From a virus: DNA of 48,765 nt. The notes under the pieces were generated by a model. It had not been told where the DNA came from, did no database searches, and saw nothing but the letters and a program-made list of their open reading frames with translations. The translations under genes were made by a program, and so were the position numbers. This document shows positions 3,066 through 48,765 of this stretch, one piece after another. The stretch lies in the IMG/VR virus record IMGVR_UViG_3300031669_000047, positions 1-48,765 of that record; one strand, given 5' to 3'. Position 1 is the stretch's first letter, and each line of letters begins with the position of its first letter.

Positions 3066-3758
3066 TCAGGGCTTGCCCGGAGGCCTATACTCCAATTCGT
3101 TTTTAAGCAGATGTAAAAGTACAGCCGCCGGCTTCCGAGCTGCACTTGCCTCTCTGGCGTAGTCCAGGACCCTGTCGAAGATTTCCCCATTGAAACGGCC
3201 GTTCGAACAGCCGGCCATAAGCCAGTTTGTGATATTGCGAAAGCAGGTGCGGTCGGATTGATTGCGTGGTTTTATAATGCTGATTAGAGCTTCGTTAAAG
3301 GTAAGTTTCCGAAGCGTATTCGTAGCCGCAGAAGGCTTTCTTTTCGTATTCGTATTCGTAATATTCTCTTTTACGTTTACGTTTACGTTTACGTTACCTT
3401 TAGCTATAGCTTTGCTATGCGTTTGCCATCGTGTTTCTGCCCCTTTAAGTCCTGCTCTGCTACGGACTTGCATCAATACTCGTGCGCGGTGCAACTCTTT
3501 ACTCACTCTTTTGTGAAAAAGTTTTGAACTTTTTATTGCAAATTTCTTTCCAATTCTGCGCCAAACTTTATCAAATTCCAAATCGGTCAAATTACACAGT
3601 GCGGCCAGCTCATATTTATCGAAAATGCAACGTCCGTGCATCTTATAAAGGTGGAAAATTATGGTGGCATAACAGCCCCGCTCCTCGGCGGTCATTCCCA
3701 TAAAATCTGCCAGAAATGCCTCCGCTTCGAGCTGAACATATTTAGGTTGTTTTGCCAT
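3066..3758 (-). CDS. DUF1376 (YdaU-like) replication-associated protein
   Basis: A 230-residue protein with the DUF1376 fold at about residues 5-95 (KYVQLEAEAFLADFMGMTAEE then CYATIIFHLY), a winged-helix-like domain found in phage replication initiation regions. A low-complexity linker of about 20 residues (NVNVNVNVK, NTNTK) is coded by hexanucleotide repeats. A C-terminal helical domain of about 90 residues follows. In lambdoid phages, repeats inside an initiator gene serve as the origin. That role is inferred here. No helicase or loader gene is recognised nearby. Confidence 0.7.
   Translation of the reverse strand: MAKQPKYVQLEAEAFLADFMGMTAEERGCYATIIFHLYKMHGRCIFDKYELAALCNLTDLEFDKVWRRIGKKFAIKSSKLFHKRVSKELHRARVLMQVRSRAGLKGAETRWQTHSKAIAKGNVNVNVNVKENITNTNTKRKPSAATNTLRKLTFNEALISIIKPRNQSDRTCFRNITNWLMAGCSNGRFNGEIFDRVLDYAREASAARKPAAVLLHLLKNELEYRPPGKP
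3343..3393. repeat. Hexanucleotide repeats inside the DUF1376 gene (candidate origin iterons)
   Basis: Three tandem TTCGTA units (3343-3360) are followed after about 9 bp by four perfect TTTACG units (3370-3393). On the coding strand they encode the Asn-Val and Asn-Thr linker. The arrangement resembles origin iterons within phage initiator genes, but could also be only a slippage-prone microsatellite. Confidence 0.6.
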
Positions 3759-10425: not shown

Positions 10426-10712
10426 TATTGTTTCTCCGCTTCCTTGATGGCTTCGCACATAGTATCTATCGCCAACTTTGGCTGTCCATACCAATACTCT
10501 TCTGTTTGATATTGATTTAGCATTGCTACTAATTTCTTATGTAACTCGTGGCTGTTGATGGCTTGGACGATGTAATCGGCTTCCTCTTTGGTCAAAAATG
10601 CTGCTAATGCTCGTTTGCCTTCAACAACCTGAACTTGGTATTTAACGCCTGCTTCGGTCGCGTGCGTTACTGTTTTTTTTACTGGTAGTTCAAATGGAGG
10701 AGATTTAGACAT
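10425..10712 (-). CDS. 95-aa hypothetical protein
   Basis: Starts at ATG 10712 (GAGGTTAAACA), overlapping the end of the HNH-AP2 gene. It is a mixed-charge, soluble protein. The N-terminal third looks beta-rich (KYQVQVVEGKRALAAFL) and the rest helical (DYIVQAINSHELHKKLVAMLNQ, partly quoted elsewhere). No domain is recognised. It couples to the HTH gene downstream. Confidence 0.5.
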   Translation of the reverse strand: MSKSPPFELPVKKTVTHATEAGVKYQVQVVEGKRALAAFLTKEEADYIVQAINSHELHKKLVAMLNQYQTEEYWYGQPKLAIDTMCEAIKEAEKQ

Positions 10713-11187
10713 TGTTTAACCTCGCAAACTTTCCAAAGCATTCTTTCGCTTTTCTGTTGTAAGCAAGCACCGCTTCTATTTCTGTATTAAAACGACCTAT
10801 ATGTGTTTGTTTTCCATCAACACATATTTGAGCTACCCATTTACCCCTGCGTCTTTTGGGATTATAATTATTCCAATGAACACCTTTGTATTTCGATTTT
10901 CTATCTTTGTGACCCGCCGAATTTCTCAGATTTTCTTTGCATGTTGCTTGGCGAAGATTTTTTCGGCGATTATCCCAACCATTCATATTTATATGGTCAA
11001 TAATGTATCCTTTAGGCAAAGGCATAATCAATTGGTGCATATCTATCGTTCGTCCCCTGCCAATATTATGACTTGCATATATAGTGTTTCTATGGGGTCG
11101 TGCGTGCCATTTCCATTGGCACAATGCTTCGTAATCTTCATCATCTACGATAGCATAATAACCTTGAGTTAGTGGTATTCGTTTCAT
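10705..11187 (-). CDS. HNH-AP2 homing endonuclease
   Basis: The start is set at ATG 11187 behind AAAGGAGAATAAT. The frame continues upstream to 11388 but without support. In the 160-residue protein, an HNH core (MHQLIMPLPKGYIIDHINMN with NRRKNLR) is followed by an AP2 DNA-binding domain at about residues 95-160 (KYKGVHWNN, WVAQICVDGKQTHIGRFNT, EAVLAYNRKAKECFG). This is the classical phage homing endonuclease layout, a selfish gene that spreads by cutting intronless or insert-free alleles. It is inserted cleanly between small genes of the operon. Confidence 0.85.
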   Translation of the reverse strand: MKRIPLTQGYYAIVDDEDYEALCQWKWHARPHRNTIYASHNIGRGRTIDMHQLIMPLPKGYIIDHINMNGWDNRRKNLRQATCKENLRNSAGHKDRKSKYKGVHWNNYNPKRRRGKWVAQICVDGKQTHIGRFNTEIEAVLAYNRKAKECFGKFARLNNV

Positions 11188-11188
11188 A

Positions 11189-11449
11189 TTATTCTCCTTT
11201 AATAGAGCGTATTGCGCAATAATCACAATACGCCTTCTCTGTTCCCGCTCCCCACTTGTAGTCGATAGGACCGTCGTACAGACCTTGAGCCTTGAGCCGT
11301 CTCTGGGCTTCGCCGATGTTCTGGACGTAGTTCGGGTCTGGGATTCGGATAATCTTGACCTTATCTGAATTGCGATTGAAATACGCAAACGAGATTAGAA
11401 TTGTGAAGATTAGCAATATGATTAAGCCGCTTCTGCATAAATTATCCAT
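11189..11449 (-). CDS. Membrane-anchored peptidoglycan-binding protein
   Basis: An 86-residue protein with one N-terminal transmembrane segment (residues 8-23, GLIILLIFTILISFAYF) and a PG_binding_1-like domain (about residues 43-80; IGEAQRRLKAQGLYDGPIDY then GAGTEKAYCDY). It would sit in the inner membrane with the cell-wall-binding domain outside. A role in lysis or in superinfection control is possible. It has no catalytic domain. The start codon overlaps the YopX-like gene's stop. Confidence 0.65.
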   Translation of the reverse strand: MDNLCRSGLIILLIFTILISFAYFNRNSDKVKIIRIPDPNYVQNIGEAQRRLKAQGLYDGPIDYKWGAGTEKAYCDYCAIRSIKGE

Positions 11450-13993: not shown

Positions 13994-14797
13994 ATGTTTC
14001 AAGCTCTGCACCGCAGGGCAAGGATGCTTGTATCAACAGTTATCGCTGAATGGGTGCTTGACAACGATGGTCTTGCCATATCTACGAAGAAATACTACCA
14101 CCGAATCATAAAAGACTTCACTTTTAACTTTCCAAAGAAACATATCTCCGATTATAAATCGACAGATATTCAATCTTACTTGAGTAAATTCGCCTGGTCT
14201 CACGAAAATAGTACAACAAACAAGGCTCTGGCGGTGCTAAAATCATTTTTTAGATATGCCTCCGATAACTATAATATCCCAAATATTACCGCCGGAATCA
14301 GAGAACGCAAGGAAAAAATGCCCCATCGACCCTTTATTTCAAAAAAAGACTTGGACACCATACTCTCTAATGCGACCCAAAGGGAAAAAGATATAATCTT
14401 AATGCTGGCTCACACAGGTCTTAGATGTTCAGAGCTTGCCGGATTAAGGCCAGAGAACATATCCCCGAACCTGTCCTCGATAACCATACAGGGCAAGGGG
14501 GGCAAGATTAGGACTATTCCTTGCAACCAGACCGTACAGGAAATTCTATCCCGTCATATTAACTTTCCAATGAACCGGAAAAGTATTTACAATATTTGCA
14601 AATATTCGTCCCTTCGAGTGGGCATGCCCTTGGCGCCCCATACGCTTCGCAGATATTTTGCCACATCACTTTTGGGCAAAGGTGTAAGTCTTCTGATAAT
14701 TTCCCGCCTTTTGGGGCATTCGTCTGTGCAGACGACTGAACGCTATCTTTGCATTGATTCTTCATTTTTGCTCGGCTCTACTGATGTGCTGGATTGA
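13994..14797 (+). CDS. int: Tyrosine recombinase (phage integrase)
   Basis: A 267-residue integrase from ATG 13994 behind CGGAGGTCAA. It has an N-terminal SAM-like core-binding domain (about residues 15-95) and a catalytic domain with Arg144 (GLRCSE), Lys171 (GGKIRTIP), His216-x-x-Arg219 (HTLRRYF), His242 (GHSSVQTTERY) and Tyr251 nucleophile. All catalytic residues are present, so it should be active. At this length it lacks an arm-binding domain, like the simpler XerC/D-type phage integrases. Rightward orientation against its neighbours marks the lysogeny module. The gene's end overlaps the convergent 106-aa gene. Confidence 0.95.
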   Translation: MFQALHRRARMLVSTVIAEWVLDNDGLAISTKKYYHRIIKDFTFNFPKKHISDYKSTDIQSYLSKFAWSHENSTTNKALAVLKSFFRYASDNYNIPNITAGIRERKEKMPHRPFISKKDLDTILSNATQREKDIILMLAHTGLRCSELAGLRPENISPNLSSITIQGKGGKIRTIPCNQTVQEILSRHINFPMNRKSIYNICKYSSLRVGMPLAPHTLRRYFATSLLGKGVSLLIISRLLGHSSVQTTERYLCIDSSFLLGSTDVLD

Positions 14798-15259: not shown

Positions 15260-15742
15260 AAAAATGCTCGTCTCTCCGAGCCGTCACGGTATGTTGGCTT
15301 ACGGCGTTCCGTTATCCCTCATGCGACTAACCAACTTAGCTCCTAAAGTTACGGGTCAGCATTCTTTAGGTTATCCCTCAACGTAACTACCCTGGGAAGC
15401 ATTCGTGAGCCGCTTTCGCGGATTCTCTCAATATAAGGCCAATGGGGAGCGGTATGCAGGCAGCACACGAAGAAACTCCCCAAAGACCATTTGTTTGGCT
15501 TGTTTTTGTAGAGTTGAGAGTCTGATGTTTTGCCTGCATACCTAACTCCAGTCAAAGTTAAAAACGTACATGCTTAGGCTGTTATCAACTGTCCAAGAAC
15601 AGCCCAAGTATTTACGTTTTAGTCTTTTGCTTAATACTTCATCTTTCTTGGCTCCTTTTTTGTTTTGCTCCATAGCTTTCGGTTTAATTGTAACTGATCC
15701 GCGTCTGAGTGCAAGCCACAACGTTTACCGAATCTTCATCAT
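15260..15742 (-). ncRNA. Candidate large structured non-coding RNA (~480 nt)
   Basis: A perfect consensus promoter (15749-15777) drives a region without a convincing gene. Helices visible on the minus strand: TTCGGT/ACCGAA (15732-27 with 15683-78), GGCTGTT/AACAGCC (15604-15577), GGTATGCAGGC/GCCTGCATACC (15542-32 with 15461-51) interleaved with CTCTCAA/TTGAGAG (15520-14 with 15431-25), CCGC-GAAA-GCGG GNRA hairpin (15421-10), and AGTTACG/CGTAACT (15388-82 with 15353-47) interleaved with CCTAAAG/CTTTAGG (15370-64 with 15348-42). TGAGGGATAAC occurs twice. GCTCG/CGAGC plus TTTTT (15281-15260) may terminate it. It recalls phage GOLLD/ROOL-type RNAs in size and style, but no identity is claimed. Confidence 0.6.
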
Positions 15743-15748
15743 GTCGGC

Positions 15749-15777
15749 ATTATACCAAAAGGACTTTAACCTGTCAA
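15749..15777 (-). promoter_or_regulatory. Perfect consensus sigma70 promoter
   Basis: On the minus strand TTGACA (15777-15772), a 17-bp spacer and TATAAT (15754-15749) match the consensus exactly. It is the best promoter in the window and points into the 15260-15742 structured region. In a prophage it would be active without phage factors, which suggests expression during lysogeny. Confidence 0.85.
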
Positions 15778-15858
15778 CATAATTCTTTCCATTTTGATAA
15801 AATATTTTCAGAATGTCGGTTTTTGGGCTGAAAACCAAAGAAATATATGCTGGCGGGC

Positions 15859-48303: not shown

Positions 48304-48433
48304 ACTAACAAATCCACATCAAACCGCAAGGATAATAATTAATTATTTTTGATAAAATATGAAGATTTATTCTGCGTTTTTAGCTCAATAATGGCGATTT
48401 TGTAGATATTTTCATTTCCTTGAAATATTTTTC

Positions 48434-48462
48434 TTGATGTTTTGGCCGAAAAAGACGATAAT
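48434..48462 (+). promoter_or_regulatory. Candidate rightward promoter, copy B
   Basis: TTGATG (48434-48439), 17-bp spacer, GATAAT (48457-48462). The start point near 48469 is next to an ATG at 48472, whose ORF (43 aa, to 48603) is read through the leader helices. Confidence 0.5.
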
Positions 48463-48471
48463 TAGTATGTA

Positions 48472-48573
48472 ATGATTACTGACCAACACAACAAAATAAA
48501 ACAATCGCTCGGCTGTCTTTGTCTCAATTCACTTTGGTCAGTAGTTGTTGCAAGGCAGTCGGGCTTTTTATTT
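48472..48573 (+). promoter_or_regulatory. Structured leader with interleaved helices, copy B
   Basis: P TACTGACCAA (48477-48486) pairs with P' TTGGTCAGTA (48534-48543), and Q GCTCGGCTG (48507-48515) pairs with Q' CAGTCGGGC (48556-48564) with two G-U pairs, followed by TTTTTATTT. The order, spacing and terminator-like end match copy A while all four helix strands differ in sequence, which is covariation. It precedes the 55-aa gene at 48588. Confidence 0.55.
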
Positions 48574-48587
48574 GAAGGGATAGGACA

Positions 48588-48755
48588 ATGGCAACAGTTT
48601 TAATCAACCAAACAAAAAAGGTAATATTACCAAACGGCACAAAAAAGCAAGTAAACATCTTTGATTACAATTTAGCTTTTTGTGCAGATGCTTATGTGCA
48701 ATTAACTGACACAAGCTGGATAAAAGCAAGAAGCCTGAAACAATTAGACAGCTAA
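48588..48755 (+). CDS. Conserved 55-aa phage protein (copy B)
   Basis: Nearly identical to 557-724 (changes at residues 2 and 4), with GAAGGGATAGGACA upstream. In this copy it follows the leader directly, without the HTH-like gene. Function unknown. Confidence 0.6.
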   Translation: MATVLINQTKKVILPNGTKKQVNIFDYNLAFCADAYVQLTDTSWIKARSLKQLDS

Positions 48756-48765
48756 CAGCCGACAC

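Follow-up and report, generated by a model that had tools for sequence, protein, structure and literature searches.

The region between positions 15260 and 15742 of the window (the whole 48,765-nucleotide phage record analyzed here) can tentatively be read as a translation-gated leader, or attenuator, RNA for the genes downstream of it. On this model, a structured 5′ leader would open a minus-strand transcription unit at the junction between the late (lysis) genes and the early genes. The conserved core would be an H-type pseudoknot in which one stem (stem A, 12 to 14 bp) hides the start codon of a leader open reading frame (ORF) and a second stem (stem B) interlocks with the first. The 3′ arm of stem B could pair either with its own 5′ arm, forming what in relatives would be a terminator stem with a T-run after it, or with the Shine-Dalgarno sequence of the ORF (in three of the four members of the group). 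Ribosomes that enter the leader ORF would melt both stems and thereby allow RNA polymerase to read into the downstream genes. With no leader translation, the transcript would stop as a short, stable RNA.

A single consensus promoter at the late/early gene junction

The perfect TTGACA-17-TATAAT promoter reported by the first-pass annotation is present on the minus strand (Table 1) and is the only such site in the genome: the pattern TTGAC-N16-18-TATAAT occurs once in the 48,765-bp phage record. Transcription of the leader is expected to start near position 15742, and no minus-strand promoter matching at more than 9/12 positions is predicted over 14500-500. The promoter block TTGACnnnnTAAAGTCnnnnnGGTATAATnGCCGA is common to the window and two related phage loci, L003 and L015. 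In the spacer between the -35 and -10 elements, these two relatives each carry one perfect copy of the palindrome GACTTTctAAAGTC (L003 7331-7344 and L015 9119-9132). Because the palindrome is perfect in both relatives and degenerate in the window, its use as a repressor or operator site is only a possibility.

Table 1. Positions of the leader, its elements, and neighboring features in the window.
Feature	Positions	Strand	Remarks
Intrinsic terminator closing the late (lysis) genes	16054-16024	minus	12 pairs, then ATTTTTCTCT
Sigma-70 promoter TTGACA-17-TATAAT	15777-15749	minus	extended -10 (TG); 12/12 match
Predicted structured leader transcript	15742-15260	minus	putative extent, set by the promoter and a weak terminator-like site at the 3′ end
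Long hairpin of the 5′ extension	15550-15630	minus	z = -4.54; 0/200 shuffles; missing in relatives
Translation start region GGAGTTAGGTATG	15537-15549	minus	Shine-Dalgarno 15549-15546; ATG 15539-15537, within stem A
Leader ORF MQAKHQTLNSTKTSQTNGLWGVSSCAACIPLPIGLILRESAKAAHECFPG	15539-15387	minus	50 codons; Shine-Dalgarno-led ATG
Stem A, 5′ arm GGTATGCAGGCA	15531-15542	minus	
Stem A, 3′ arm TGCCTGCATACC	15451-15462	minus	
Stem B, 5′ arm GGTCTTTGGGGAG	15476-15488	minus	
Stem B, 3′ arm CTCCCCATTGGCC	15437-15449	minus	its CTCC could pair with Shine-Dalgarno GGAG instead
Second, weaker pseudoknot, AGTTACG/CGTAACT with CCTAA(AG)/(CT)TTAGG	15342-15388	minus	no homologue
Weak terminator-like hairpin GCTCGGAGAGACGAGC-ATTTTT	15260-15281	minus	5 bp + ATTTTTG
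53-aa CxxC...CxxC (zinc-ribbon-like) protein, next gene	15237-15076	minus	GAGGT Shine-Dalgarno
106-aa ORF, final one of the unit	15063-14743	minus	overlaps 3′ end of convergent integrase

The intrinsic terminator that closes the late genes is predicted to insulate the leader from them. When the genome is read as a circle, the minus-strand late genes extend down to the lysis region and are followed by this terminator, the leader, two small genes, a convergent integrase, and then the early genes on the minus strand (YqaJ exonuclease, Erf, SSB, a primosomal protein, and others). Neither the 53-aa protein nor the 106-aa ORF has a Pfam or PHROG match. A search for the HTH_3 family found no CI-type repressor in the window genome, which does carry an integrase, and an integrase profile search of the genome_contigs set found no prophage.

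The ends of the record (1-734 versus 48319-48765) overlap imperfectly, with 98% identity over 205 bp and 91% over 115 bp, and the two copies differ. Because the ends overlap and a relative, G003, spans their junction, we consider the phage genome to be circular or permuted and about complete.

Several other features of this genome were observed. An HNH endonuclease gene with a weak AP2 match (10705-11388, minus) and an endonuclease VII-like gene (1521-1937, plus) are probable mobile endonucleases; a relative of the latter in G008 sits behind TTGACA-16-TATAAT. Open frames of 68 codons lie antisense to the C-terminal part of the integrase in the window (14559-14765, minus), L003 (6569-6775, minus), and L002. 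Those of L002 and L003 are alike, with the ends GSLES and GSLET, and these frames may simply reflect integrase conservation.

Folding of the predicted leader RNA

The 483-nt RNA has a minimum free energy of -147.1 kcal/mol, which is below that of every shuffled sequence (-122.9 ± 6.7; z = -3.62). Among 101 non-overlapping 483-nt segments of the minus strand, only one has a lower z, and it overlaps the same locus. No other part of the 48.8-kb genome of this length (~480 nt) is as strongly structured as this locus (z from -3.6 to -5). By domain, the central pseudoknot gives z = -3.8, and the 3′ domain an ordinary z = -1.45.

The first-pass annotation had described many perfect helices, among them two pseudoknots, together with a GNRA-capped hairpin, a duplicated sequence, and a final hairpin followed by a T-run. 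All of these can be found, but they differ in how far they exceed chance. The first pseudoknot consists of GGTATGCAGGCA/TGCCTGCATACC interleaved with TGGGGAG/CTCCCCA, or 12 + 7 perfect Watson-Crick pairs, and was equaled in none of 300 shuffles. This pseudoknot and the long hairpin of the 5′ extension are beyond chance, whereas the remaining helices are near chance level. The second pseudoknot is weak, being reached by 13 of 500 shuffles of the 3′ domain. The GNRA-capped hairpin is present as described. Two copies of TGAGGGATAAC are likewise present, but two matches with at most one mismatch arise in 14 of 100 genome shuffles. The final hairpin does precede a T-run, but it is not above expectation, with five terminator-like sites in the region compared to 3.7 in shuffles.

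Two small coding candidates were noted in the same stretch. In the 5′ extension (15631-15661, minus), a strong Shine-Dalgarno, AAAAAAGGAG, is located 9 nt before ATG AAG TAT TAA, a three-codon minigene that recalls the bar minigenes of lambda. A 43-codon ORF from the ATG at 15671 was set aside for its poor Shine-Dalgarno and its lack of a tblastn match in phages.

Relatives of the element in other phages

The searches turned up three independent relatives and no more, each of them at a late/early gene junction. L003 and L015 were reached through their integrases (57% and 62% identical to that of the window, respectively), and further phage contigs were reached through terminase relatives. In both L003 and L015, the element occupies the same place in the same orientation and comprises the promoter block followed by ~140 nt that hold the central pseudoknot and a T-run and nothing more. 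The third relative, in G008 with a copy in G009, was found by a descriptor for interleaved helices. A lipoprotein gene of the lysis region, a terminator, and TTGACT-17-GATAAT precede it. Its anatomy is that of the other relatives, but its sequence is unalignable with theirs. Its pseudoknot is formed by TGGACGCAAAGCA/TGCTTTGCGTCCA interleaved with AGCCCCA/TGGGGCT, followed by TTGTTTTTT, and its fold energy is unexceptional (z = -1.82). Searches of G008 for integrase families found no match, although a fragment of such a gene is possible there. Because this member has no detected integrase, what stays constant across the group is the late/early junction, and the position beside the integrase noted by the first-pass annotation does not extend to all members.

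Sequence searches miss such elements, as the third relative came only from the interleaved-helix descriptor. When the DNA of annotated phages and plasmids was searched with the RNA, only short spurious hits came back. The pattern TGAGGGATAACGGAAC matched solely coding DNA of unrelated phages, whereas GGGGAGTTYCTN{17,24}GCTCCCC recovered one true relative (L007, on the same contig as L003) and otherwise GC-rich coding DNA. The pattern AAAGTCNTTTTGGTATAATG added one chance match, and TCATCGGCATTNCTGCTCC returned two known members along with 16 matches in coding genes. Among viral contigs, the full promoter pattern matched those of L003 and L015 alone; in genome_contigs, it matched one chromosomal promoter by chance.

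A T-run directly follows the 3′ side of stem B in L003, L015, and G008, and it is lost in the window (GCCTTTTTTATTGAGA in L015 versus GCCTTATATTGAGA in the window). The window also has ~330 additional nucleotides, forming the 5′ hairpin domain and the 3′ domain, that have no homologue. In terms of the leader model, the window lineage would have lost its first T-run and gained this extra RNA. Because of this loss and these gains, what appears to be a single 480-nt RNA in the window probably combines a conserved core of ~140 nt with additions specific to its lineage.

This comparison bears on the proposal of the first-pass annotation that the region may be a new class, or a distant member, of the large ornate RNAs typified by GOLLD and ROOL, in which case the entire ~480 nt would act as one functional particle. 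GOLLD and ROOL RNAs are phage-borne, highly structured, and much larger, with conserved elaborate folds and frequent locations near tRNA islands (PMC12286853). The element is also phage-borne, highly structured, and pseudoknotted, and its length in the window, low folding energy, and several helices suit such a proposal. However, the search with Rfam models that had been suggested produced no hit at the gathering threshold anywhere in the window, no plausible hit near the locus even at E ≤ 10, and no match for the relatives either. The window has no tRNA or tmRNA, the relatives hold just the ~140-nt core with nothing homologous to the extensions, and the 3′ domain is not significantly structured. 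We regard membership among the giant ornate RNAs as highly improbable. An intron or a known riboswitch was also dismissed on the basis of the Rfam result.

Compensatory changes point to selection on the central pseudoknot. For every one of the four members, 400/400 shuffles fall short of its best pair of interleaved helices. Stem A is AGAAATGCCGATGA/TCATCGGCATTTCT in L003 and AGCAATGCCGATGA/TCATCGGCATTGCT in L015, where C-G replaces one A-U pair. Stem B is GGGGAG/CTCCCC in L003 and CGGGAG/CTCCCG in L015, where C-G replaces a G-C pair. Compared to these relatives, stem A of the window has been rebuilt with mostly new letters. Because a MAFFT alignment of the four members did not align G008 meaningfully, these changes from few sequences are listed individually and are not a covariation statistic. 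The first-pass view of a structured RNA behind its own promoter thus gains from the fold statistics and from compensatory changes at the same genomic place in relatives, while its transcription is predicted from the promoter. The search for homologous regions and covariation that it recommended has produced three relatives and individual compensatory changes, but no counterpart of the window's extensions.

In favor of the leader model are the recurrence of the element at this junction, the interleaved stems with their compensatory changes, the T-runs of the relatives, and the lack of any predicted minus-strand promoter above 9/12 over 14500-500. Some aspects of these data weigh against it. First, there are only four sequences, two of which are related, and the window has no T-run after stem B and only a weak final terminator. 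Second, the first genes downstream of the leader are not homologous between different phages, and in three phages, including the window, the convergent integrase separates the leader from the main early operon.

A putative leader ORF with its start codon in or at stem A

All four members (window, L003, L015, and G008) carry a Shine-Dalgarno sequence (GGAG, AGGAG, AGGAG, and AAGGA, respectively) 6 to 9 nt ahead of an ATG located within or at the 5′ arm of stem A. The ORFs that begin there are 50, 38, 39, and 38 codons long. This makes the earlier statement that the region has no convincing gene doubtful. Shuffled leaders give such a Shine-Dalgarno-led ORF in 1.7 to 3.8% of cases per member (3.8% for the window), a range obtained with a 37-codon threshold picked after the ORFs had been seen and with members that are not fully independent because L003 and L015 share ancestry. 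The Shine-Dalgarno is also paired in the nested minimum-energy folds: its partner is CTCC in the 3′ arm of stem B in three members (window, L003, and L015) and the T-run in the fourth (G008).

The first-pass annotation had held that a reading frame conserved across homologues would speak against a noncoding RNA. Among the homologues, a Shine-Dalgarno-led ORF is always present, but neither its frame nor its amino acids are conserved. Between L003 and L015, indels of 1, 3, and 1 nt have altered the ORF and its encoded sequence, while the stems remain intact. These frame-breaking indels led us to reject conserved coding as the main explanation of the ORF. Because the stems persist while the frame breaks, it looks as though the structure and the act of translation, and not the peptide, have been selected.

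The same data can be used to weigh a different explanation, namely that the element is the stable, translationally locked mRNA of a real small hydrophobic peptide, either type I toxin-like or another membrane peptide. The ORF lengths and good Shine-Dalgarno sequences would be in keeping with this, as would the predicted locking of the start codon. Three of the four peptides have a hydrophobic C-terminal half (maximum 17-residue hydropathy of 1.6 to 2.2), and the L015 peptide is marginally similar to those of the window and G008 (shuffle fractions of 0.016 and 0.034, respectively). However, the remaining peptide pairs are no more similar than shuffles, there is no clear amino acid conservation, and the indels cause L003 to encode a different sequence. 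A tblastn search found no match to the leader peptide in phages. Moreover, because the stop codon is located past the T-run in the relatives, a terminated mRNA there would be without a stop codon. With regard to a type I toxin-antitoxin system, the peptide is hydrophobic in three of four members and not clearly conserved, and the sole plus-strand promoter-like site beside the leader (15774-15803) matches at 9/12 positions. A peptide-encoding mRNA is an improbable explanation.

Another alternative is a stand-alone structured noncoding RNA, such as a prophage sRNA or "moron" RNA, transcribed from its own promoter to its own terminator. It would act in trans on RNA or protein of the phage or the host, and the ORF would be incidental. 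The near-consensus promoter located downstream of an insulating terminator is what would be expected for such an RNA, and it is also consistent with a conserved structure, unconserved amino acids, and downstream genes that differ in each phage. Against it are the Shine-Dalgarno-led start of the ORF in 4/4 members and the end of the ORF in L003, where the stop codon shares AUGA with the start of the following gene; in L015, the following gene starts 5 nt away from the stop. Antisense targets within the phage are also not beyond chance. This alternative is possible but doubtful. Overall, we place the translation-gated leader first, followed in order by the stand-alone RNA, the small-peptide mRNA, and the giant ornate RNA.

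Comparison with known RNA-based systems

The translation-gated leader has its closest parallels in two phage systems. One is the IsrK-orf45-anrP RNA of the Salmonella prophage Gifsy-1, in which the nucleotides of orf45 are conserved and its amino acids vary (PMC4825925), a pattern that our leader ORF recalls. Our element is predicted to share with this locus the character of a prophage RNA with its own promoter and a short ORF whose start is structurally locked, it may share a terminator with read-through, and the AUGA overlap in L003 resembles that of orf45-anrP (PMC4825925). The Shine-Dalgarno and ATG at stem A are consistent with a locked start in all four members, and a T-run follows stem B in L003, L015, and G008, whereas the window keeps only the weak site at 15266. 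Whereas the IsrK ORF follows its terminator, the ORF here crosses it, and the proposed lock is a local stem that interlocks with the terminator stem. Also unlike IsrK, the element has no Rfam match and no antQ neighbor was seen. No trans-acting complementary segment was found: the stem arms are self-complementary by nature, and complementary sites elsewhere in the phage genome do not exceed chance.

The other parallel is the immunity system of satellite phage P4, where, as described in PMC4825925, immunity needs a processed CI RNA that is complementary to two leader sites. To judge from that description, both systems would place a structured leader before early genes, with termination there thought to decide expression. 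In our case, early recombination and replication genes follow on the same strand, with the convergent integrase intervening in the window. In contrast to P4, a repeat search revealed short matches only and no leader segment complementary to two separate sites at the expected lengths, and the sequences are unrelated. We do not file the element under P4 immunity because defining features of that system were not found. In outline, the element may work like the IsrK or P4 leader RNAs, by analogy and not by demonstrated membership in either family.

Type III toxin-antitoxin systems such as ToxIN also have a promoter, a pseudoknot RNA, a terminator-like site, and then a small gene. This arrangement is seen in the window, but there are no tandem RNA repeats, and the next gene encodes the 53-aa CxxC protein, which has no family match and is no recognizable toxin.

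It is conceivable, if unlikely, that these elements form a new class of leader riboregulators in which one strand chooses between locking the Shine-Dalgarno and start codon and forming an interleaved-stem terminator. In temperate phages with an integrase and no recognized CI-type repressor, such RNAs would act as a switch for lysis-lysogeny or for superinfection immunity. If so, several related uncultured phages would start their early regions with an RNA device that is conserved in fold and start-codon placement and not in sequence. The pseudoknot would tie translation to transcription termination, which would be a new layout among the few phage leader-RNA switches (P4 and IsrK), and would suggest how lysogeny might be held in temperate phages without an evident CI-type repressor.

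A second strong pseudoknot was observed elsewhere, in the L079 segment of another contig (G014 20001-40000), at ~3549-3661 on the minus strand. It lies in a different context, between two small genes, and consists of two interleaved helices, CAGGACAATCGCT (13 bp) and AAAGCCCTCA (10 bp). The gene immediately upstream has the ribosome-binding site AGGACAATCGCTATG, of which the 3′ arm AGCGATTGTCC is a perfect complement, so this pseudoknot could be an antisense-type regulator.
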